From: Halichondria panicea
Taxonomy: Eukaryota; Porifera; Demospongiae; Suberitida; Halichondriidae
Length of the DNA stretch: 64,000 nucleotides
Assembly (NCBI RefSeq): GCF_963675165.1
Contig: NC_087389.1
Coordinates: 2,514,001-2,578,000, forward strand
Direction: 5' to 3'
Made by a program: the position numbers and the translations under genes
Shown here: positions 1,741 to 34,009 of the stretch, in pieces
How the letters are laid out: each line of letters begins with the position of its first letter
Numbering within the stretch: the stretch's first letter is position 1
Notes under the pieces: generated by a model
What the model saw: only the letters and a program-made list of their open reading frames with translations
The model's database searches: none
Told to the model about the DNA's origin: nothing

Positions 1741-2560
1741 TCTTAATATTACACACTCTTATGCACAAGGCTATAGAAGGCTATAGAGCGGTTGTACACT
1801 CAGCCTTCATTTCGAGGAATTTCAACAGTACTTCGTCGCTATCGAAAACTCGCTCGTTTTGGAATCAAACAACTTTACAAAATGCTGTGTTTGCTGCAAT
1901 TTGTGCACACTACATTTACAACTTAAGTTATCACAAAAAATGCAGTGACTTTTGGTTGTTTCTCCAAGAGAATGTAGAAATCGCCAAATTGTTTTTCTGT
2001 TCATTTTGCAGGAATCAAAAGGGCATTTACTGAACTTTATGCCACAGACGACTCTGATTGAGTGTTGAACTGTTGAACTGATTGACTGGAACTTACCGCT
2101 GATTTTGAAAATGCGTGTACTGTAAAAATGCGTGTACTGTAATTCCAGGTCAACTTAACAAATTCTTTCTTGAAACAACATACTAACATTTTAATTGTCA
2201 TTTAAACATGTTATATATAGTTGTAACAACAAACAACTCCAGGTCAAATTAAAATTGTAGTGCCAACAAATTTAAATACTAACTAACACTAAAAATGTGC
2301 AATGATTGTCATTTCAACATGTTCATATGTAATGGTGACTAATATATAGGTGACTAATATATATTTGTTATAACAACGAACAACTGCAGTTGTGTTGTGT
2401 GAGATTCATCACAACAATTTTTTTGTTGTTGTGCTAACAAACTACAAACTTGTTTTTACAATGAGAAAAGTTAATGATGAAGGCAAAGTTGTAATGATAA
2501 TGTTAACATTACAGGAATAAGGAATAATTATAGAGTTAAATAGTCTGGTCTGGCGCGGGT
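1741..2560. other. AT-rich stretch without a recognised gene
   Basis: Low-complexity AT-rich DNA with repeated 'ggtgactaatatat' and 'aacaacgaacaact' patterns. It includes a 16-17 bp immediate duplication at 2108-2140. Open frames here are short and show no recognisable motif. Confidence 0.5.
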
Positions 2561-2599
2561 TGTTTGTGCGAGAGTATCTCAAAGTCCCTGCTGCCACTC

Positions 2600-3240
2600 A
2601 GATGACTTCACCACCATACACCCTCACCACCATACACCCTCCGTCTGAGATCACTCTGAGGGCGTGCAAAACGTGGTAGGCTCATGTTGACAGCATGTGT
2701 GGGACCACACACTTTTAAGTCTGCACCTCTCAATGCAACTGACCACTTGAGGAGAAGCTGAAATCCAAGCGTAGCATGCACAACTCCCACACTCTTAGAC
2801 AGGAGGACAGGTGAGAACAATATCACCCTGAGTGGTGAGGAGGCGATACAGGAGGCGATACAGATGAACTAACGATGTGTGTAGCTTCTCTTAACTGTTG
2901 ACTCTGGGTCAATAAGTTTCTTAAGATGGGAGTTGCCAGTTGTGCGATTACAGTGACCCCGTGACCCCGGGAAACTTCAAGGTTTTTAACGATTTAGCAG
3001 GCTGCTGGACCCAGACGATGCAAGACATCATCGCATTCATGCACAAAAAACCAGTTCATGAGGTAGGCACGCATGCATGCATCATCATAACAAATGCAAT
3101 AAGGTTTTAACCGTGGTGCGTACTGGTACTGGATGCAAAGTTGGTGGTATGGAAGTGGTTGCATTTCGCCCAGAGAAATTTGGTAATGACAGTCCTCATG
3201 CCATTACTGCAGCTCTGAAAAGTACGAAAGTACGAAACAG
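2600..3240 (+). pseudogene. Relic of RAG1-N-terminus-like element (copy A)
   Basis: The segment 2647-2760 shares a colinear core with 62570-62700. Both contain 'gtgcaaaacgtggt', 'ttgacagcatgtgtg' and 'tctgcacctctcaatgcaac', and both have 'ggcgatacagatg' 100-150 bases further on. At 62.5 kb this core follows a RING-like start, so this is a related but more damaged copy. A 16-bp duplication (2609-2624/2625-2640) and several stops interrupt every frame. Downstream, about 3110-3230, a stretch reading like VVAFRPEKFGNDSPHAI may be further 3' coding sequence of the same element, but I cannot place it. The family assignment rests on the 62-kb copy and is inference. Confidence 0.4.
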
Positions 3241-3385
3241 GGGGACTTTTTAGACGGCTAGACGGCACTATTATTCGTGGGGTCAACTCGTTAGGATGAT
3301 ATGTAATGTAGTACAGTCAACATCAGCAAGGTAAGGTAAGTGCATATTCCATATAGCAATTATACTGCCATGGACTGGATCCCTA

Positions 3386-3750
3386 GAAGGTCTCCCACCC
3401 CAAGACTGTCTCCCACCCAAGAAGATCTTTCACCCCTAGACGGTCGTCTCCCACTCCAAGAACAAGAAGATCTCCCCCACCCCTAGACGGTCTCCCACCC
3501 CAACCACATCGAACCCACCCCTAGACAGTCTCCCACCATGTCTCACACTCCAAGAAGATCTCCCACCCGATCCCACAAGACGGTCTCCCATCCCAAGACA
3601 GTCTCCCACCCCAAGACAGACTCCCCAAGACAGACTAAGAAGATCTAGACAGTCTCCCACTCAAAGAAGGCCCAAGACAGTCTCCCACCAGGCCAATCCC
3701 TACATGGTCTCCCTACATGGTCTCCCTACATGGTCTCCCACTCCAACTCC
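3386..3750. repeat. Minisatellite of TCTCCCACCCCAAGAC-type units
   Basis: Degenerate tandem units built on 'gtctcccaccccaagac' or 'ctagacggtctcccacc' repeat across about 350 bases. The run ends with three near-identical 'tacatggtctccc' units at 3700-3735. Minus-strand open frames here simply translate the repeat into a W/G-rich low-complexity peptide. Confidence 0.85.
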
Positions 3751-4190: not shown

Positions 4191-5010
4191 AAGAGGACAC
4201 AGAGGACACATGCAGAGAACGCACAGCGAACACAGAAAAAGCAGAGGGACACAACAGGCACACACAGAGGATACAGGGGACACAACGGGCACAGCGGACA
4301 CAACAGAGGACACAACAGACACAGCAGGACACAACACAACACACACAACACACACAACACACACACAACACACACAACACAGAGGACTGCATGCAGAGAC
4401 ACAATGGACACAGCAGACACAGAGGACACAGCGAACACAGAGGACACAACAGACGCAGAGGATACACAGGGGACACAGCAGACACAATAGACACACAGAC
4501 ACACAGACACACAGACACACAGACACAATACACACAGGACACGAGACACATGCAGAGGACACAGCAAACACAGACAGACACAGAGGACACATCAGCAGAC
4601 ACTGCGGACAAAGTAAACTCATGCAGCAAACACAGCAGTCACACAGCAGTCACAGCGGTCACAGTGGACACAGAGAGACACAACAGACACAGTGGACACT
4701 GCAGTCACAGTGGACAGACTTGCACAGCGGACACAGTGGACACAGCAGTCACAGTAGACATGCACAGCAGATACAACAGACACAACGAGAGACACATGGA
4801 CACAGAGGACACAGAGAGACATGGACACAGAGAGTCAGAGAGACACAACGCAGACACAGACAGACACAGACAGACACCACAGACACAGCGGACACAGAGA
4901 GACACAGCGGACACAGCAGACACATCGGAGACAGAGAGACACGAGAGACAGAGAGACACGACAGACACAGAGAGACACCAGGAAACACAGTAAACACCAA
5001 TGGACACAGA
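4190..5010. repeat. GACACAG-type satellite array
   Basis: About 800 bases consist almost wholly of 6-9 bp units related to 'gacacag', 'gacacaaca' and 'cacacagac', with interspersed 'ggacacag' steps. Long open frames exist in several phases on both strands (T/H/Q-rich one way, C/V/S/L-rich the other). This is the expected by-product of a stop-poor short repeat, so I do not call a protein. Confidence 0.9.
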
Positions 5011-5011
5011 G

Positions 5012-5580
5012 GACACATACGACATTTGAGACTGCGCATGCACACCTGAATCAATACATAATTATAAATGTACAACCACACCCACTTTAGGGTTAATTAC
5101 ATTCTCTATTTGGATACACTTTACTCCTACCCATCAGGTGAATATATAATTTGTCACGATGTGCACACACAGCCGACACACAGCCGACTCATCAACAGAC
5201 AGACATGGACACAGAGAGTCAGAGAGTCACAACGCAGACACAGACAGACACAACAGACACAGACAGACACCACAGACACAGCGGACACAGAGAGACACCA
5301 CAGACACAGCGGACACAGCAGACACATCGGAGACAGAGAGACACGACAGACACAGAGAGACACCAAGGAAACACAGTAAACACCAATGGACACAGACACA
5401 GAGGACACATACAACATTTGAGACTGCGCATGCACACCTGAATCAATACATAATTATAAATGATAAATGTACAACCACACCCACTTTAGGGTTAATTACA
5501 TTCTCTATTTGGATACACTTTACTCCTACCCATCAGGTGAATATATAATTTGTCACGATGTGCACACACAGCCGACTCAT
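5012..5580. repeat. 392-bp higher-order duplication containing the satellite
   Basis: A non-satellite block starting 'gacatttgagactgcgcatg' runs through 'ctttagggttaattacattc' to 'gatgtgcacacacagccgac'. It occurs at 5020-5180 and again at 5410-5575, offset by 392 bases (for example 'actgcgcatg' at 5031 and 5423). The interval between holds a second, shorter GACACAG array (5200-5400). The unit is therefore unique block plus satellite, duplicated in tandem. The copies differ by small indels, for example 'tgataaatg' at 5460. Confidence 0.85.
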
Positions 5581-5589
5581 CAACAGACT

Positions 5590-6060
5590 AATGTTGCAAA
5601 CAGATATCGTCACCAAAGCGCCGTTCTCATATAGGTATAGGGACATCAGGGATGAAAGTTGCATGTGTGTTAGTGTTAGTGAAAATATTTGCAATGATAT
5701 AATTAGTCCTAAACATGACACAAAATTAACGAATAATAATTTTACAGTAACCTTAAATGAGTCAAGAGCACCTATGTGGATCTCGCACGATGATAACGAT
5801 GATAATAAATGTAGCGACAACAATTGCTCTGTGTGTGAAAGTAGCATGTGTGTGAAAGTAGCAGCACTCCCAATGTTGGTGGGAGGCAACCAGCAAAAGG
5901 TCAACAAGAAACAGTCACATTTGTATGTCACATTTGTATGGAAATTGTAGACAAACCTGTTGAGCTGAAGGTGTGCCTTCGAGTTTCCAAAACAAATTTA
6001 GAGCACCTCCTTTCTGATATTTCCAACTCTTTATATTAGTTGACTCTTTATATTAGTTGA
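5590..6060 (+). pseudogene. Relic of RAG1-N-terminus-like element (copy B), RING start visible
   Basis: At about 5870-5970 one frame reads NVGGRQPAKGQQETV, then VCHICMEIVDKPVEL. This parallels the 62.4-kb copy, where the same position reads VGGQG..., then ECPLCLHIVDKPIEL. C-x2-C followed by an IVDKPxEL stretch is the beginning of a RING-type zinc finger. The later Cys/His ligands are not visible because the frame degenerates. Overlapping frames around 5558-5950 and two immediate duplications ('gtgtgaaagtagca', 'cacatttgtatg') show that the copy is broken. Confidence 0.4.
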
Positions 6061-21889: not shown

Positions 21890-23200
21890 GTCAAAGACAA
21901 CGACGTTTGGGAGCTGGTGGAGCTACCCCCAGGACGAAAGAAGGTCGGTAGTAAGTGGGTGTATAAGTTGAAAACTGGTGCAGACGGTAAAATCGAACGC
22001 TACAAAGCAAGACTGGTTGCACAGGGATTTACTCAAAAGTTTGGATTTTGCCCTGTCGCAAGACAAGAATCCCTCAGAGTATTGATGTCATTGTCCGTGC
22101 AGTATGGACTCAAACTACATCAAATAGATGTGGCTCTAAATGGAAATCTTGAGGAGGAGGTGTATATGGCTCAACCAGAAGGTTTCAAATCTGAAGGACC
22201 TGAAGGACGAGAACACTTAGTTTGCAAGCTTAAAAAGAGCATCTATCGGTGTTGGAACACGGCACTCGATACATATCTCAAGATTGGATTCACACAATCC
22301 AATAGTGATCCCTGTATATAGCACAGGAGGAGAACTTGTGTACATGGTCGATCTTTGCTGCGAAGACTGACGAACAGTTGCAACACGTAACGAATGCTCT
22401 GGCAAAATTTGAAATAAAGGACCTTACACTATTTCCTAGGAATGTCAGTTGTCCAAGATGACGAAAACAAATCGGTCTACACTGAAAATCTATTGACAAA
22501 GTACACTATGCAAAAATACACAGTATGCAAGAATATAAACCTGTGGAACCTGGAGCAAAGCTGAAAATAGCTGAAGAAAGTGATGAATGTGTGGACCAAC
22601 AGCTGTATCAGTCAGCAATTGGAAGTCTGATGTATCTCTCAGTTGGTACAAGACCCGATATCACCTATGCAGTGAGCAGTCTATCGAGATATTCAACGAA
22701 AGAACACTGGAGTGCAGTAAAACGAGTATTGAAATACTTGAAAGGAACGGCGAAAGTTCAAACAAATTGACCGGATACTCAGATGCTACTCAGATGCAGA
22801 TTGGGGAGGAGACATAAACGACAGAAAGTCTACCTCCGGCTATATCTTCAAGCTGAACGGTGGAGCCGTATCCTGGAGAAGTCATGCGTTGCATTATCTA
22901 CGTTGCACTGTCAGCAGCAGCTCAGGAAGCAATTGTGGTTGAAACAGCGTATGTCTGAACTTACCACCTCAAACGACCAGCCAATAACGATTTTCGAAGA
23001 TAATCAATCGGCAATTGCAATGACTCACAATCCACAATTTCACGGACGTTCTAAACACATCGGTATTAAGCATGTTCAAGCTGGAGACATTAAACTTGGT
23101 ATATTGAGAAATGACCGCTGATATGCTTACCAAGGGTCTAAGTCGAGAAAGTTTCTGCAAACTATGTATTCAAGCAGGAATAGCGAACTCAAACGAACAT
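21890..23200 (+). pseudogene. Copia reverse transcriptase and RNase H region
   Basis: RT begins at 21917 (VGSKWVYKLKTGADGKIERY, then KARLVAQGFTQKFG). It continues with a shortened LHQIDVALNGNLEEEVYMAQ and PEGF. The usual catalytic YVDD position is degenerate (VYMVDLCCED). At 22600-22770 come YQSAIGSLMYLSVGTRPDIT and RVLKYLKGT, and at 22790-22960, in changing frames, the RNase H motifs DRKSTSGYIFKLNGGAVSWRS and LSAAAQEA. Many stops follow. Domain order, spacing and single-strand continuity identify one degraded Copia polyprotein. Confidence 0.85.
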
Positions 23201-28545: not shown

Positions 28546-28576
28546 GTAAGATTATACACTGTACACTTACCCTATA

Positions 28577-28962
28577 GAGTAAGTAATCAAACCTCGGACT
28601 ATACCTATATTCGGACGCGTTTTCCATGGACTCAAAGCAGCTATCCAGATTTTAGCCACATCTACAAGTCACTGGTGCTTGGTACTACCTAGCAGCCAAC
28701 TCTCAGCCTGTTCCTCACAACGACACACTGGTCACGAGCTCTCAAAAACGAGTCCGAAATAATCAAAATACGGACGAAGGTACCGTTATCCGGACACTAC
28801 TTTAGACTGCGTAGCTTGAGATATTTCTAGTTTCTGTGCCTCCTGTACTTCTTCTTAGCTAGATCTACCATCATGCAAAAAATCAGCAGTGGCAGCTGCA
28901 CAACAAACTCCAGAAACCAGACTGAAAATAGCAGCCCCACCCACTAATTTAGGATCTCGGAC
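28577..28962 (+). repeat. Left terminal inverted repeat (386 bp)
   Basis: It pairs with 33576-33961. Inner features shared by both arms are 'attcggacgcg', 'atccggacactac' and 'ggatctcggac', so a short CGGAC/GTCCG word recurs within each arm and may be the transposase-binding word. Confidence 0.9.
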
Positions 28963-29215
28963 GCATGTGCATTGCATATAATTATAGGCAGATCTACACG
29001 TGTTAATGAGCTAGTCTATGCGAGAGTCTATGAGCTATTAGCCAAAAGTCTAAAAGAAAAACTCTCTACCTGAAGGACAAAATCAAAGGAGGGGCAGAGA
29101 ATCGGTGGATTTGTTTGTAAGTGCCACACTAGATCTACATACAGTAGACTATAACTAGAGTGTCTTTATGTGATGATTTTTTGTGTGTATACAGATTGTT
29201 AGTAATTAACTAGGT

Positions 29216-30769
29216 ATGGCTGAAGGCTATATTTTAAGAAGTAAGCTTGCATCACGTCCATCAACACCAGCAGTGTTTGACGGTAGATTTACTCACCAAC
29301 GACCGCTGTACAAGTCATGGGTGGATGACAGTATGAAAAAAGCTATGGAAGCAGTTGTCAAGAATGGAGCAAGTGTTAGAGAGGCAGCAGTTCGCTTTGG
29401 TGTGCCCAAGTCAACTTTGGGGGATCGAATCAGTGGCAGAGTTCAACACGGTGATGTCAGTGGCCCCCTAAAATACCTCTCAACTGCGGAAGAAAATGAC
29501 TTAGCCAAATTCTTGATAAAATGTGCTGGTATTGGATATCCTAAGACAAGATTAGAAGTTATATCTCTTGTCCAAACGATTATTGATTATAAAGGGATTC
29601 ACTCAACTGTTACGGCTGGTTGGTGGCAGAGATTTATCAAGCGAAATGCGAACATCACTTTAAGGGCCCCTTCTCCACTATCAAATGCTCGAGCATATGC
29701 AACAGATCCTGATATCATGAACAGGTACTTTGATCTACTTGAGGAGACTTTGTTCAGCCGTGCTGCATATTTAACATGGATGAAACTGGCCTCCCCATGG
29801 ATCCTAAGGCTTCTAAAAGCGTTTACAGAAAAGGAGAAAAAAATCCTTTAGCATGCTCTAGTGGTAATAAATCCCAGACGACAGTAGTAGCCTGTGTGAG
29901 TGCTGCAGGCTATTGTATGCCACCTTTGGTGATCTTGAATCGGAAGAGTGTTCCGAGCTGCTATAAGGAAGGAGAAGTTCCTGGGACCAAATATGGCCTG
30001 TCACCAAAAGGATGGATTGACCGTGACTTGTTTCACCAGTGGTTTGCTTTTCATTTTCTTCGATATGCTCCTCAAAAACGTCCCTTATTGCTGCTTCTTG
30101 ATGGCCACTCCAGCCACTTTTGCCCGGAAACAGTTCATCTAGCTGATGAACATGATATAGTTGTATTTATTTGTTCTCCCTCCAAACTCTACCCACCTAT
30201 TGCAGCCTTTGGATAAGGGGACATTTTCCCCTTTAAAGACTTATTGGAAACAGGAGTGTCACGAATTTATGAGCAAAAATCCAGGCGAAGTAGTGTCCCG
30301 TTTTACCTTTTCCAAAATTTTGGGAAGATCATGGGAAAGATGTATGAGATTATCCAATGTGCAAGCGGGATTTAAAGTAACCGGTGTGTACCCATTTGAT
30401 CGTGAAGCAGCTTTCAAGCAAATTAATATGCCTTCTGGTGTTGCCAAAAGTTTTTCTCTGCCGTATCAACCCATGTTTAGTCCTGCGCCCAGGAAAAAGA
30501 AAGCTGCAGCTATACATGTAGATCTAGTACGTTATTCAGAAGATGATGATATCAGCTCTGAAGAATCGTTCAGTGACGTACGAGCAGTACATACACCTGT
30601 AGGTGGCAGTTTTGATTATGAGAGTGCAGCACGAGAACCTGGTTTTGGTGAACATGCCAAGATGCCACCCTATACGTCTACTGGTGATACGGATGACAAC
30701 AGTTCCAGTGACACTGATCGTGTGACACCTTTAATTTACTGCAGCCAAGCCAAACCAAAAAAATGCTGA
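29216..30769 (+). pseudogene. pogo/Tigger-type transposase with frameshifts
   Basis: The first block (29216-29850) starts MAEGYILRSKLASRPST. A psq-like helix-turn-helix follows at about residues 35-70 (KNGASVREAAVRFGVPKSTL), then a CENP-B-type second helix-turn-helix ending GWWQRFIKRN (residues ~100-145). The second block (29785-30216) holds IFNMDETGLPMDPKAS (first catalytic Asp) and LLLLDGHSSHF (second Asp). The third block (30161-30769) holds LPPNSTHLLQPLDKG (third Asp) and the C-terminal CMRLSNVQAGFKVTGVYPFD. With the frames in register the second and third Asp are separated by 36 residues (DD36D). Single-base frame changes lie at ~29770, ~30175 (TTCTCCC) and ~30755 (A7 run). Either the copy is dead or the assembly has indel errors. 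Confidence 0.9.
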
Positions 30770-31189
30770 AAACACCCATCCCACCTCCAAGAAAAGTTGA
30801 TCCTTTGAAAGTAAAATCTTGTGGTAAAATTCTCACTAGCAGCGAATGTATGGCTATTATGGATAAAAAAAAAGAAGAGAAAGATGAAAAGGAAAGGCTT
30901 AAGGCTGAGAGAAAGCGTTTGCAGGCTGAGAGGAAGCAATTGAAGGCTGAAAACAAGCGTTTGCTGGCTGAAAAACGAGCTTCGAAGCTATTAGCCAAGA
31001 AATCGGGAAAGAGTGTTTCCACAAAAGTGTCTAAAGCTCAGCATTCCTTATGTGTTGAAAACCCACCTGAACCGGTTTTTACTGCTAAAGAACTTGAACT
31101 TTTTACCACCAGGTTTGAAAATGGTTTTGACCTCACGCATGATGACCGATATAACTTATGGTTAAAAGAAAATGGATCTCCCCAGAATG
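30763..31189 (+). CDS. Lys/Glu-rich coiled-coil segment, probably transposase C-terminus
   Basis: The frame opens at 30763 inside an A7 run that also ends the preceding frame (ATGCTGA overlap), so it is probably the C-terminal part of the transposase in shifted phase. It contains CGKILTSSECMAIMDKKKEE, then about 60 residues of charged heptad-like repeats (ERLKAERKRLQAERKQLKAE). The tail includes ELELFTTRFENGFDLTHDDR and YNLWLKENGSPQN. The coding part most likely ends at 31189, where GTGTGT can act as a 5' splice site in phase 1, matching the phase of all exon-like units downstream. Confidence 0.7.
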
Positions 31190-31359
31190 GTGTGTATATA
31201 GTGTTTGGTATACTGCAGAATGTGCTATAATCATGTTTCTATTGTATTTAGCCAGGCAAAAGCGAGTTACGAAGCCTACTTTCAAAGTGAGAGAAAGCAT
31301 TGGTCAAGGTGGTTACTTCTGCTATTTAATACTGACATAGCTAATATCCATAATTGCAG

Positions 31360-33093
31360 ATTGGAGTGATGCTGATGAGTTGTGCCACGTGACGGGGATA
31401 GATTCAAGTGGCGTATCTGGTGTGTTGATTATTGATTTAGCTATAATTATACAGCTACATAATTATGTTATATATACTTGGATAGCACTTGAATTGAATA
31501 GCCTGCAACATGTCCGCTTAACACGTCATAACTTTCGCTCAATTTGGCGATGCATGAGGCTATTTCTATTGAGCATAATTATAGTACTGCAGTCGACTAT
31601 ACTCGTGATTAATACATTTTCTAACAGATGAAGAGCCAGTCAAGTCCAAGGTACTGTCTGGTAAGTAGGTTTATTTTATAATTATATGCGACCAATTCGG
31701 ATGATGTGCCTTTAGTTGCAGAGCAAAGAAGGAACGCTGGAGTGAGGGCAACTAGAGCTAACCCATCTGGTGAGTGAGTAAATTTAATTATCCCCCTTCA
31801 TATTAGGACCCACCCCCAAAGCAAATCTACCCCCCTGAAACAATTTAAGACTCTTAAAGGTAGCTCTGAACTCCGTCATATTCACATGTATATTATTAGG
31901 AAGCAGTGTTGGATTGAGAGCTACTAAATCTACTAGAGCTAACCCGTCAGGTTAGTGGCATATGTTGTACGTCGCATTCACATACACGTCTATTTTTAGA
32001 GCCCGTAAACAGTGTTGGAGTGAGAGCTACTAAATCTACTAGAGCTAACCCGCCAGGTTAGTGGTTCATGGTACCATAATTATGTTGTCGCATTCACATA
32101 CACGTCTATTTTAGAGCCCGTAAACAGTGTTGGAGTGAGAGCTACTAAATCTACTAGAGCTAACCCGCCAGGTTAGTGGTTCATGGTACCATAATTATGT
32201 TGTCGCATTCACATACACGTCTATTTTAGAGCCCGTAAACAGTGTTGGAGTGAGAGCTACTAAATCTACTAGAGCTAACCCGTCAGGTTAGTGGTTCATG
32301 GTACCATAATTATGTTGTCGCATTCACATACACGTCTATTTTAGAGCCCGTAAACAGTGTTGGAGTGAGAGCTACTAAATCTACTAGAGCTAACCCGTCA
32401 GGTTAGTGGTTCATGGTACCATAATTATGTTGTCGCATTCACATACACGTCTATTTTTAGAGCCCGTAAACAGTGTTGGAGTGAGAGCTACTAAATCTAC
32501 TAGAGCTAACCCGCCAGGTTAGTGGTTCATGGTACCATAATTATGTTGTCGCATTCACATACACGTCTATTTTTAGAGCCCGTAAACAGTGTTGGAGTGA
32601 GAGCTACTAAATCTACTAGAGCTAACCCGCCAGGTTAGTGGTTCATGGTACCATAATTATGTTGTTGCATTCACATACACGTCTATTTTTAGAGCCCGTA
32701 AACAGTGTTGGAGTGAGAGCTACTAAATCTACTAGAGCTAACCCGTCAGGTTAGTGGTTCATGGTACCATAATTATGTTGTCGCATTCACATACACGTCT
32801 ATTTTTAGAGCCCGTAAACAGTGTTGGAGTGAGAGCTACTAAATCTACTAGAGCTAACCCGCCAGGTTAGTGGTTCATGGTACCATAATTATGTTGTCGC
32901 ATTCACATACACGTCTATTTTTAGAGCCCGTAAACAGTGTTGGAGTGAGAGCTACTAAATCTACTAGAGCTAACCCGTCAGGTTAGTGGTTCATGGTACC
33001 ATCTGTTGTCGCATTCACATACATGTGTATTTTTTGGCCCAGGAAGCAATGTTGGAGTGAGAGCTATTAAATCTACTAGAGCTAACCCGTCAG
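31360..33093 (+). CDS. Array of tandem in-phase mini-exons encoding a ~19-residue basic repeat
   Basis: Fourteen exon-like units, each preceded by a (T-rich)AG and followed by a GT donor: 31360-31419 (60 nt), 31628-31660 (33), 31722-31769 (48), 31900-31950 (51), nine of 57 nt starting at 32000, 32115, 32230, 32345, 32461, 32577, 32693, 32809 and 32925, and 33043-33093 (51). Every length is divisible by three. Each unit starts two bases into a codon and ends one base into the next, so all introns are phase 1 like the upstream donor at 31189. The 57-nt units read (E)PVNSVGVRATKSTRANP(P/S) and alternate between Pro and Ser at the end; the earlier units are shortened relatives (QRRNAGVRATRANPS, GSSVGLRATKSTRANPS). 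Donors are GTTAGT in the array and GTAAGT/GTGAGT upstream. The terminal exon is not identified. No similar protein is known to me; the tail would be Arg/Lys-rich and possibly nucleic-acid binding. Confidence 0.65.
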
Positions 33094-33110
33094 GTTAGTG
33101 GTTTAATAGT
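31900..33110 (+). repeat. Tandem repeat of 115-116 bp (exon plus intron unit)
   Basis: The unit comprises the 57-nt exon-like core, the donor, 'ggttcatggtaccataatta' then 'tgttgtcgcattcacataca', and the acceptor. Spacing between unit starts is 115, 115, 115, 116, 116, 116, 116, 116 and then 118 bp. Copies are almost identical in exon and intron alike, so amplification is recent. The first and last units are the most divergent. Confidence 0.95.
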
Positions 33111-33228
33111 ACCGTATTGAAATTGGTAAAGAGCCCACCCAAGTGTGCTGTACATTTCTGGTTCATATATAGTCAAGTTCCTAAATGACAATGTCACTAT
33201 ATATGCATGTTACTCGTCTCAATTAACG

Positions 33229-33575
33229 TCATGTACAAACGCAATAAAAAGAAATAGTGGTTAGGGAGTTCCATGTATTTACCCTGTAGTGCTCGAGGAC
33301 GATTCTTTTTGTTCTGCTACTGATTGCTCTGTACAAAAGAGCGGGATAGAGTTCCCTGTGTGGATCAGTTGTGATGTGTGCTCCAGGTGGTATCATCTTT
33401 ACTGTATAGGACTGAAGAAAACCAAGAAACAGTTTACTTGTGTACAATGTATATAATGAACAGTAAGCTTGTGTAGATCTATATTCAATGTGTATAGTTG
33501 TGATTAAATACAGTATACTACCTTTCTGGGCTCTGGTAGAGATCGATTTTCTTTTAACCATTAAGTGAACTCTGT
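33229..33575 (-). CDS. Antisense exon-like block in the right arm of the pogo-like element
   Basis: On the minus strand next to the right terminal repeat is 'atggttaaaagaaaatcgat', nearly matching the plus-strand exon end at 31158 ('atggttaaaagaaaatggat', coding WLKENGSP). Here the frame WLKENRSLPEPRK runs to a GGTAGT donor-like site. After 'gttttcttcag' a second block (to ~33290) is open in more than one phase. This could be an inverted duplicate of the coiled-coil exon end or a short antisense gene. The functional reading is speculative. Confidence 0.3.
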
Positions 33576-33961
33576 GTCCGAGATCCTAAATTAGTGGGTG
33601 GGGCTGCTATTTTCAGTCTGGTTTCTGGAGTTTGTTGTGCAGCTGCCACTGCTGATTTTTTGCATGATGGTAGATCTAGCTAAGAAGAAGTACAGGAGGC
33701 ACAGAAACTAGAAATATCTCAAGCTACGCAGTCTAAAGTAGTGTCCGGATAACGGTACCTTCGTCCGTATTTTGATTATTTCGGACTCGTTTTTGAGAGC
33801 TCGTGACCAGTGCGTCGTTGTGAGGAACAGGCTGAGAGTTGGCTGCTAGGTAGTACCAAGCACCAGTGACTTGTAGATGTGGCTAAAATCTGGATAGCTG
33901 CTTTGAGTCCATGGAAAACGCGTCCGAATATAGGTATAGTCCGAGGTTTGATTACTTACTC
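33576..33961 (-). repeat. Right terminal inverted repeat (386 bp)
   Basis: Reverse complement of 28577-28962 over its full length with equal length and very few mismatches, ending CTTACTC then TA. Confidence 0.9.
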
Positions 33962-34009
33962 TACTTAAATTTCTATAAGCGAGCATAATTCCATAAAAAA
34001 TTGTAGCAT

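Follow-up and report, generated by a model that had tools for sequence, protein, structure and literature searches.

A pogo-type transposon with a tandem array of predicted phase-1 mini-exons and a PHD-finger exon

Introduction

The window analysed here, a stretch of 64,000 nucleotides, contains a row of short exon-like units downstream of a transposase-coding region. The locus raises the question of what these units are: exons of the transposase gene, and if so with what role in its product, or a tandem repeat with the mere look of exons. The reading that is probably correct is a spliced, length-variable and mostly basic tether for a PHD finger, encoded by a pogo-type cut-and-paste element. 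The anatomy of the gene, the phase of its exons, the PHD exon, the variation in copy number and the recurrence in other subfamilies are results at the level of the sequence, and a gene anatomy that is real, unusual and recurrent within one genome appears well supported. The exons themselves are presumably spliced and translated.

The element and its transposase

A pogo-type DNA transposon of 5,385 bp lies on the forward strand at 28577..33961, as delimited by its ends and by a TA on either side (28575-28576 and 33962-33963). Its left terminal inverted repeat (28575..28965, 391 nt including the TA) is 99% complementary to the right one (33573..33963). The first part of the transposase gene (29216..31189, forward strand) encodes a helix-turn-helix, a DDE domain and a basic coil and ends at a splice donor, which is in phase 1 and hence in the phase of the units downstream, as had been proposed.

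When the genome was searched with the first 211 residues of the transposase, at least 57 stretches matched, some of them pieces of one element. Only three copies of the window subfamily were found, the window copy (C13) and two others (C14 and C16), and C14 alone has a long open transposase frame; in the window copy this frame is broken, giving overlapping ORFs. The 674-aa ORF of C14 contains HTH_psq (34.0 bits, cut-off 20.4) and DDE_1 (79.4 bits, cut-off 22), and 35 residues lie between the second and the third D of its catalytic domain, which is a DD35D spacing. For the pogo superfamily, spacings of DD29-59D are reported, with DD35D in Passer and Fot (PMC7386202). A TA is present on both sides of C13 and C14, the flanks of which are not alike; in C16 it is seen on the left side only. 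The element therefore has what marks members of the pogo superfamily, i.e. HTH and DDE_1, the DDxD spacing, and TA duplication with terminal inverted repeats, in a comparison in which the relatives of the transposase were drawn from the source genome only. The label "pogo-like transposon" of the initial annotation is confirmed by the two domains above cut-off in C14 and by the TA flanks.

Mini-exon units and the PHD-finger exon

The 14 units that had been described as phase-1 exons with AG/GT borders and lengths in multiples of three were all located as such: 14/14 have these borders and such lengths, and all are open in phase 1. On the forward strand they comprise mini-exons of 60 nt (31360..31419), 33 nt (31628..31660) and 48 nt (31722..31769), the latter a diverged relative of the amplified unit; a 51-nt exon that is the first RATKSTRANP unit (31900..31950); nine 57-nt exons (32000..32981) with introns of 58-59 nt, starting at 32000, 32115, 32230, 32345, 32461, 32577, 32693, 32809 and 32925; and a last unit of 51 nt (33043..33093). 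TRF describes the array by a period of 116, 9.8 copies and 97% matches.

Two exons had been overlooked in the initial annotation. One is a 57-nt phase-1 candidate at 31252..31308 (forward strand, ARQKRVTKPTFKVRESIGQ), which was obtained by exon chaining only and has a weak-looking donor, GTGGTT. The other is the last exon of the gene (33290..33456, forward strand), which has a phase-1 acceptor and encodes a PHD finger and a stop; it scores 27.4 bits against Pfam PF00628 (cut-off 24). The zinc-binding Cys/His pattern of PHD fingers is present in the alignment, and the chains of known structure that match best by sequence are those of KDM5B, ALFIN-like 1 and BPTF. A structure predicted from the single sequence had a mean pLDDT of 53 and was set aside. 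When PHD stretches were scored singly, 7/8 exceeded the PF00628 cut-off, the one from related locus L026 being below it (21.4).

With a PHD finger encoded by the final phase-1 exon, the array lies between this domain and the transposase as a linker and is not the tail for which it had been taken. This position is not universal, because in two related loci (L007 and L024) the array lies after the PHD finger.

Unit number in close copies

Outside the array, the three copies are close to each other: in pairwise comparisons of C13, C14 and C16, the 5' part differs at 13/3,034, 12/3,005 and 11/3,020 aligned positions, plus 32 to 114 gap columns, and 400 bases of the 3' part differ at 1 to 4 positions. 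A comparison of unit number among genomic copies, as had been suggested with the claim that the array is expandable, bore out this claim: C13 has 11 units of the RATKSTRANP type, C14 has 6 and C16, with an element length of about 7.9 kb, has 32. Units with an intact AG|51 or 57|GT structure make up 11/11 in C13, 6/6 in C14 and 25/32 in C16; five of the seven broken units of C16 lack the first acceptor AG and two have inserted bases.

Recurrence in related loci

Including the window copy, 31 transposase loci were picked from the genome matches for score and variety. In 16/31, a tandem array with a period of at least 90 follows the transposase; L006 is a 17th case, in which part of the PHD exon is doubled by an exact tandem duplication of 94 bp (5447-5635), and the related L027 and L031 have no such array. 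The arrays total 22, and those outside L006 were sorted into 10 unit families. Unit numbers within families are 1, 1, 2, 3 and 9; 2, 5 and 6; 2, 4 and 6; and 8 and 9, partial units being counted. Over the ~150 residues compared, identity among the transposases of ten loci with arrays is 32-69%.

Each consensus unit was searched, phase by phase, for the highest-scoring open exon whose length is a multiple of three; free pairing of splice sites had chosen cross-unit pairs in long-period arrays, and the per-phase comparison was used after this. Phase 1 is best or tied in 21/22 arrays: it wins outright in 10 and shares the top score with another phase in 11, and it is absent in L006. At the level of families, six include one or more arrays in which it is strictly best, and in the other four it is only tied. 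For L019 and L028, the top-scoring splice pair is not the exon favoured by eye. With length left free (16 arrays), 11 top-scoring pairs had a length divisible by three, the other five being those of L006 and of four long-period arrays (L005, L015 twice and L019). The array period is a multiple of three in 4/22 only and not in 18/22, so that straight read-through would shift the frame.

Ten exon queries, from eight of the ten families plus that of L032 (the units of L007 and L029 were left out), matched at E 1e-4 or better only loci grouped by transposase or by unit. The PHD exon alone as query gave 34 matches, of which the strongest new one, L032, was the sole new match fetched; its array has a period of 167 bp, 8.8 copies and a 90-nt exon in phase 1, and the exon after it ends in a PHD finger. 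A TG dinucleotide run of ~1 kb (506 copies; 2499-3509, gene strand) precedes the mini-exon array of L032. A possible C48/Ulp1-like protease domain lies before the PHD finger in L007 (2733-3554), L008 (3803-4618) and L032 (5574-6474; all gene strand); Peptidase_C48/Ulp1 scores 19.5 bits in L007, under the Pfam cut-off of 20.7, and the other two were judged by eye.

Among eight loci examined for long inverted repeats, these enclose the gene in L003, L008, L012 and L018; the others have repeats of 35 nt (L005), 254 nt (L006) and 78 nt (L024) or none (L007). The controls for array frequency are small: elsewhere in the window there is a single array with a period of 90 or more, and of five further DDE_1 loci, three that belong by eye to other DDE_1 groups (L033, L034 and L036) have no array. 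The remaining two resemble by eye the clade of the window transposon, L035 being without an array and L037 with a 176-bp, 1.9-copy array that is unconfirmed, as its consensus exon was sought in the locus and not found, and was excluded from the counts. A search for relatives in viral contigs gave 7 pattern matches, none of which was confirmed.

Frame, selection and linker composition

In four unit families, the frame is kept across the exons: full-length exons with a phase-1 stop number 0/44, 0/10, 0/17 and 0/5, whereas all introns longer than 40 nt (43, 6, 14 and 5), which vary in length, have a stop in the continuing frame. Left out of these counts were 4/48 units of the first family (58, 58, 58 and 49 nt) and 2/7 of the last (111 nt, a length that is also divisible by three), and in the first family the placement of the template masks one inserted unit of C16. 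AG directly precedes the template start in 37/48 units of the first family, partly because the end units have 51 nt. In the 142-bp family, phase 0 is likewise free of stops. The initial annotation would have given up its reading if the cores carried stops or off-frame lengths as often as the spacers; this check did not refute it (stops in 0/44 full-length cores vs 43/43 introns in the first family, the introns varying in length). Against the reading stand the 7/32 units of C16 that do not have the intact structure.

Amino acids are another matter. Within arrays, pN/pS is 3.3, 2.66, 1.14 and 0.39 in the four families (pairs of units are not independent), and exon diversity is near intron diversity. 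Purifying selection on amino acids within recent arrays was sought and not found in three of the four families: the frame is kept, and amino acids are unconstrained in these three. On a longer timescale, the old unit (31722-31769) differs from three younger types over 10 aligned codons by 4, 3 and 4 synonymous and by 1, 1 and 1 non-synonymous changes, with the old unit common to all three comparisons, and by a length gap of nine in-frame bases. The intron flanks of old and younger units are mostly unalignable, 5/6 comparisons being within the shuffle range and one slightly above.

Twelve unit peptides (307 residues, one peptide being the unconfirmed L037 consensus) consist to 46% of K, R, S or T, with a net charge of +29 and one aromatic residue; two of the twelve have a net charge of 0. 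A linker of such composition is probably disordered.

A proposed tether and its alternatives

The observations are probably best accounted for in the following manner: The pogo transposase gene has a long first part (helix-turn-helix and DDE), followed by small predicted phase-1 exons, the last of which encodes the PHD finger. One exon-plus-intron unit has been amplified in tandem, and every unit would contribute 17-19 residues of a linker rich in Lys, Arg, Ser and Thr. Whole units may be gained or lost through unequal exchange or repair; since the coding piece is flanked by introns of one phase, such gain or loss keeps frame and splice sites whatever the length of the unit. The resulting tether would join the catalytic body at the ends of the element to a PHD finger that binds chromatin. 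A farther-reaching version is rather improbable: unit number and exon choice of mini-exons that were arrayed repeatedly in this pogo clade might tune a mostly basic, histone-tail-like tether, which controls PHD-steered integration or restraint of the transposase, each copy having its own setting and many isoforms. Weighing against a tether are the broken units of C16, the unconstrained amino acids in three of four families, the arrays that lie after the PHD finger in L007 and L024 and the 11/21 arrays in which phase 1 only ties another phase.

A neutral expansion comes close to an even chance. Duplication of units would be harmless in the phase-1 3' half of the gene, where arrays drift and recombine, and the units would be spliced and translated, their number having no role. 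The absence of amino-acid constraint within recent arrays of three families, the persistence of broken units in C16 and the duplication in L006, which strikes the PHD exon itself, all fit such a course, and the tolerance of changes in unit number by the phase-1 anatomy fits the facts nearly as well as a tether does. What speaks against neutrality is the frequency of arrays, which occur in 10 unit families and 16/31 loci vs one other in the window and no array at the three loci assigned to other DDE_1 groups; these controls are small, and tolerance alone can also give rise to high recurrence.

Regulated exon skipping, by which one copy would yield many transposase isoforms of differing linker length, comparable to micro-exon genes, is possible but unlikely. 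Every unit exon is symmetric, so that any subset keeps the frame, and the unit splice sites score moderately (5.6 bits per pair); the anatomy would be identical without any skipping. A spliced retrocopy, which could have proved splicing, was sought and none was present among the best-scoring candidates.

Exon chaining and shuffle tests

Exon chains were built between the final codons of the transposase part and the PHD exon with any phase allowed, stops and splice weights deciding; the weights are generic values, untrained on the source genome. With an exon penalty of 2, introns in phase 1 make up 16/16 in C13, 10/10 in C14, 9/9 in L018 and 10/10 in L026, and, weighing against a uniform phase, 29/30 in C16, 8/9 in L005 and 7/11 in L003. 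The array of L003 is interrupted at ~4241-5022 (gene strand) by foreign sequence, which looks like another inserted element. Chaining without knowledge of the frame gave mixed phases, so it is the frame that carries the result.

With arrays uncollapsed, 11 to 21 out of 60 shuffles at each locus had any path, and 0 matched the real score. As repeats inflate chaining scores, the arrays were collapsed before retesting, in C13 to one 57-nt unit plus the last unit. Phase-1 introns then make up 8/8 in C13, 4/4 in L026, 4/4 in L018 and 5/5 in L005. Among 300 dinucleotide shuffles for each of these four loci, a path existed in 77 (C13), 46 (L026), 44 (L018) and 68 (L005), and 0 attained the real score or gave a path of phase-1 introns only with an equal intron count; since L018 and L026 are one family, the test amounts to three independent cases. 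The claim that such consistency of frame is hard to get by chance is supported by this test for the collapsed arrays. It does not hold for the nine 57-nt units, which are recent duplicates, so that their common phase is one inherited event and not nine; as independent evidence it was rejected.

A minisatellite without coding function, lying in a 3' UTR or a 3' intron and exon-like by accident only, would agree with the failure of frame-blind chaining to recover the phase-1 chain, but it is very improbable in view of the stops in introns and none in phase-1 cores, the synonymous excess in the old unit, the collapsed-array shuffle test and the recurrence across loci; the last two led to its rejection as the main reading.

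Known systems and what is new

A linker made of repeated symmetric exons is found in the PEVK region of titin, which is a host muscle gene. The pogo superfamily (IS630-Tc1-mariner) shares with the present element HTH_psq, DDE_1, the DD35D spacing and the TA duplication (PMC7386202), whereas the PHD finger, the mini-exon array and the length of 5.4 kb (about 7.9 kb in C16) are features of the element described here; the reported length of pogo elements is 1.2-5.2 kb (PMC7386202). By term search, the main texts of two pogo surveys (PMC7386202 and PMC7325037) contain neither "PHD" nor "intron", and that of PMC7386202 does not contain "exon" either.

Three further systems share single features: (i) the hobo transposase likewise contains a coding repeat of variable number, and the number of its TPE repeats is reported to influence transposition; these are 9-bp units in one ORF of a hAT element, in contrast to an exon plus intron in a pogo element (PMC4807377), and hobo offers, by analogy, an earlier case of a transposase with a variable coding repeat; (ii) schistosome micro-exon genes also have many very small symmetrical exons, with variable proteins possible by skipping, but are host genes for secreted proteins (PMC4350168), whereas the predicted exons described here are tandem duplicates in a transposase gene; tiny symmetric exons, which make up most of the coding sequence in micro-exon genes, are confined here to the 3' half, the first part being one long frame; (iii) Ginger1 transposases, which resemble Gypsy integrases, have a C-terminal Ulp1 and, in one listed family, a PHD finger, with 0-4 introns in the listed families, and tandem repeats are not mentioned in the text of PMC2836005 covered by a term search. 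As Ginger1 elements have both domains, Ulp1 or PHD on a transposase is not new. In the RAG1-RAG2/Transib system, RAG likewise combines a transposon-derived recombinase with a PHD-finger partner, RAG2 being a separate protein (PMC4411706). A pogo transposase with both a PHD finger and a mini-exon array was not found described in open-licence titles and starts of abstracts, and its novelty is provisional.

A repeat that lies inside a constant-phase exon-intron unit frees the coding repeat from the rule that its period be divisible by three, and protein length can therefore change in large steps at the speed of recombination. With its ten unit families, one transposon clade of one genome provides a natural system in which to test exon amplification, selection on flexible linkers and the ways in which transposases might find targets by means of chromatin readers.

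Other features of the window

Of the 142 tandem repeats listed for the window (1-64000), 83 are perfect 11-18 bp duplications that do not exceed 2.5 copies, which gives the impression of a source genome prone to short tandem duplication. Low-complexity arrays of ACAGAC/CACAGA, among them one with a period of 399 bp in two copies, occupy 4273-5576, and open frames at 21917-23121 resemble by eye remnants of a copia-type retrotransposon.
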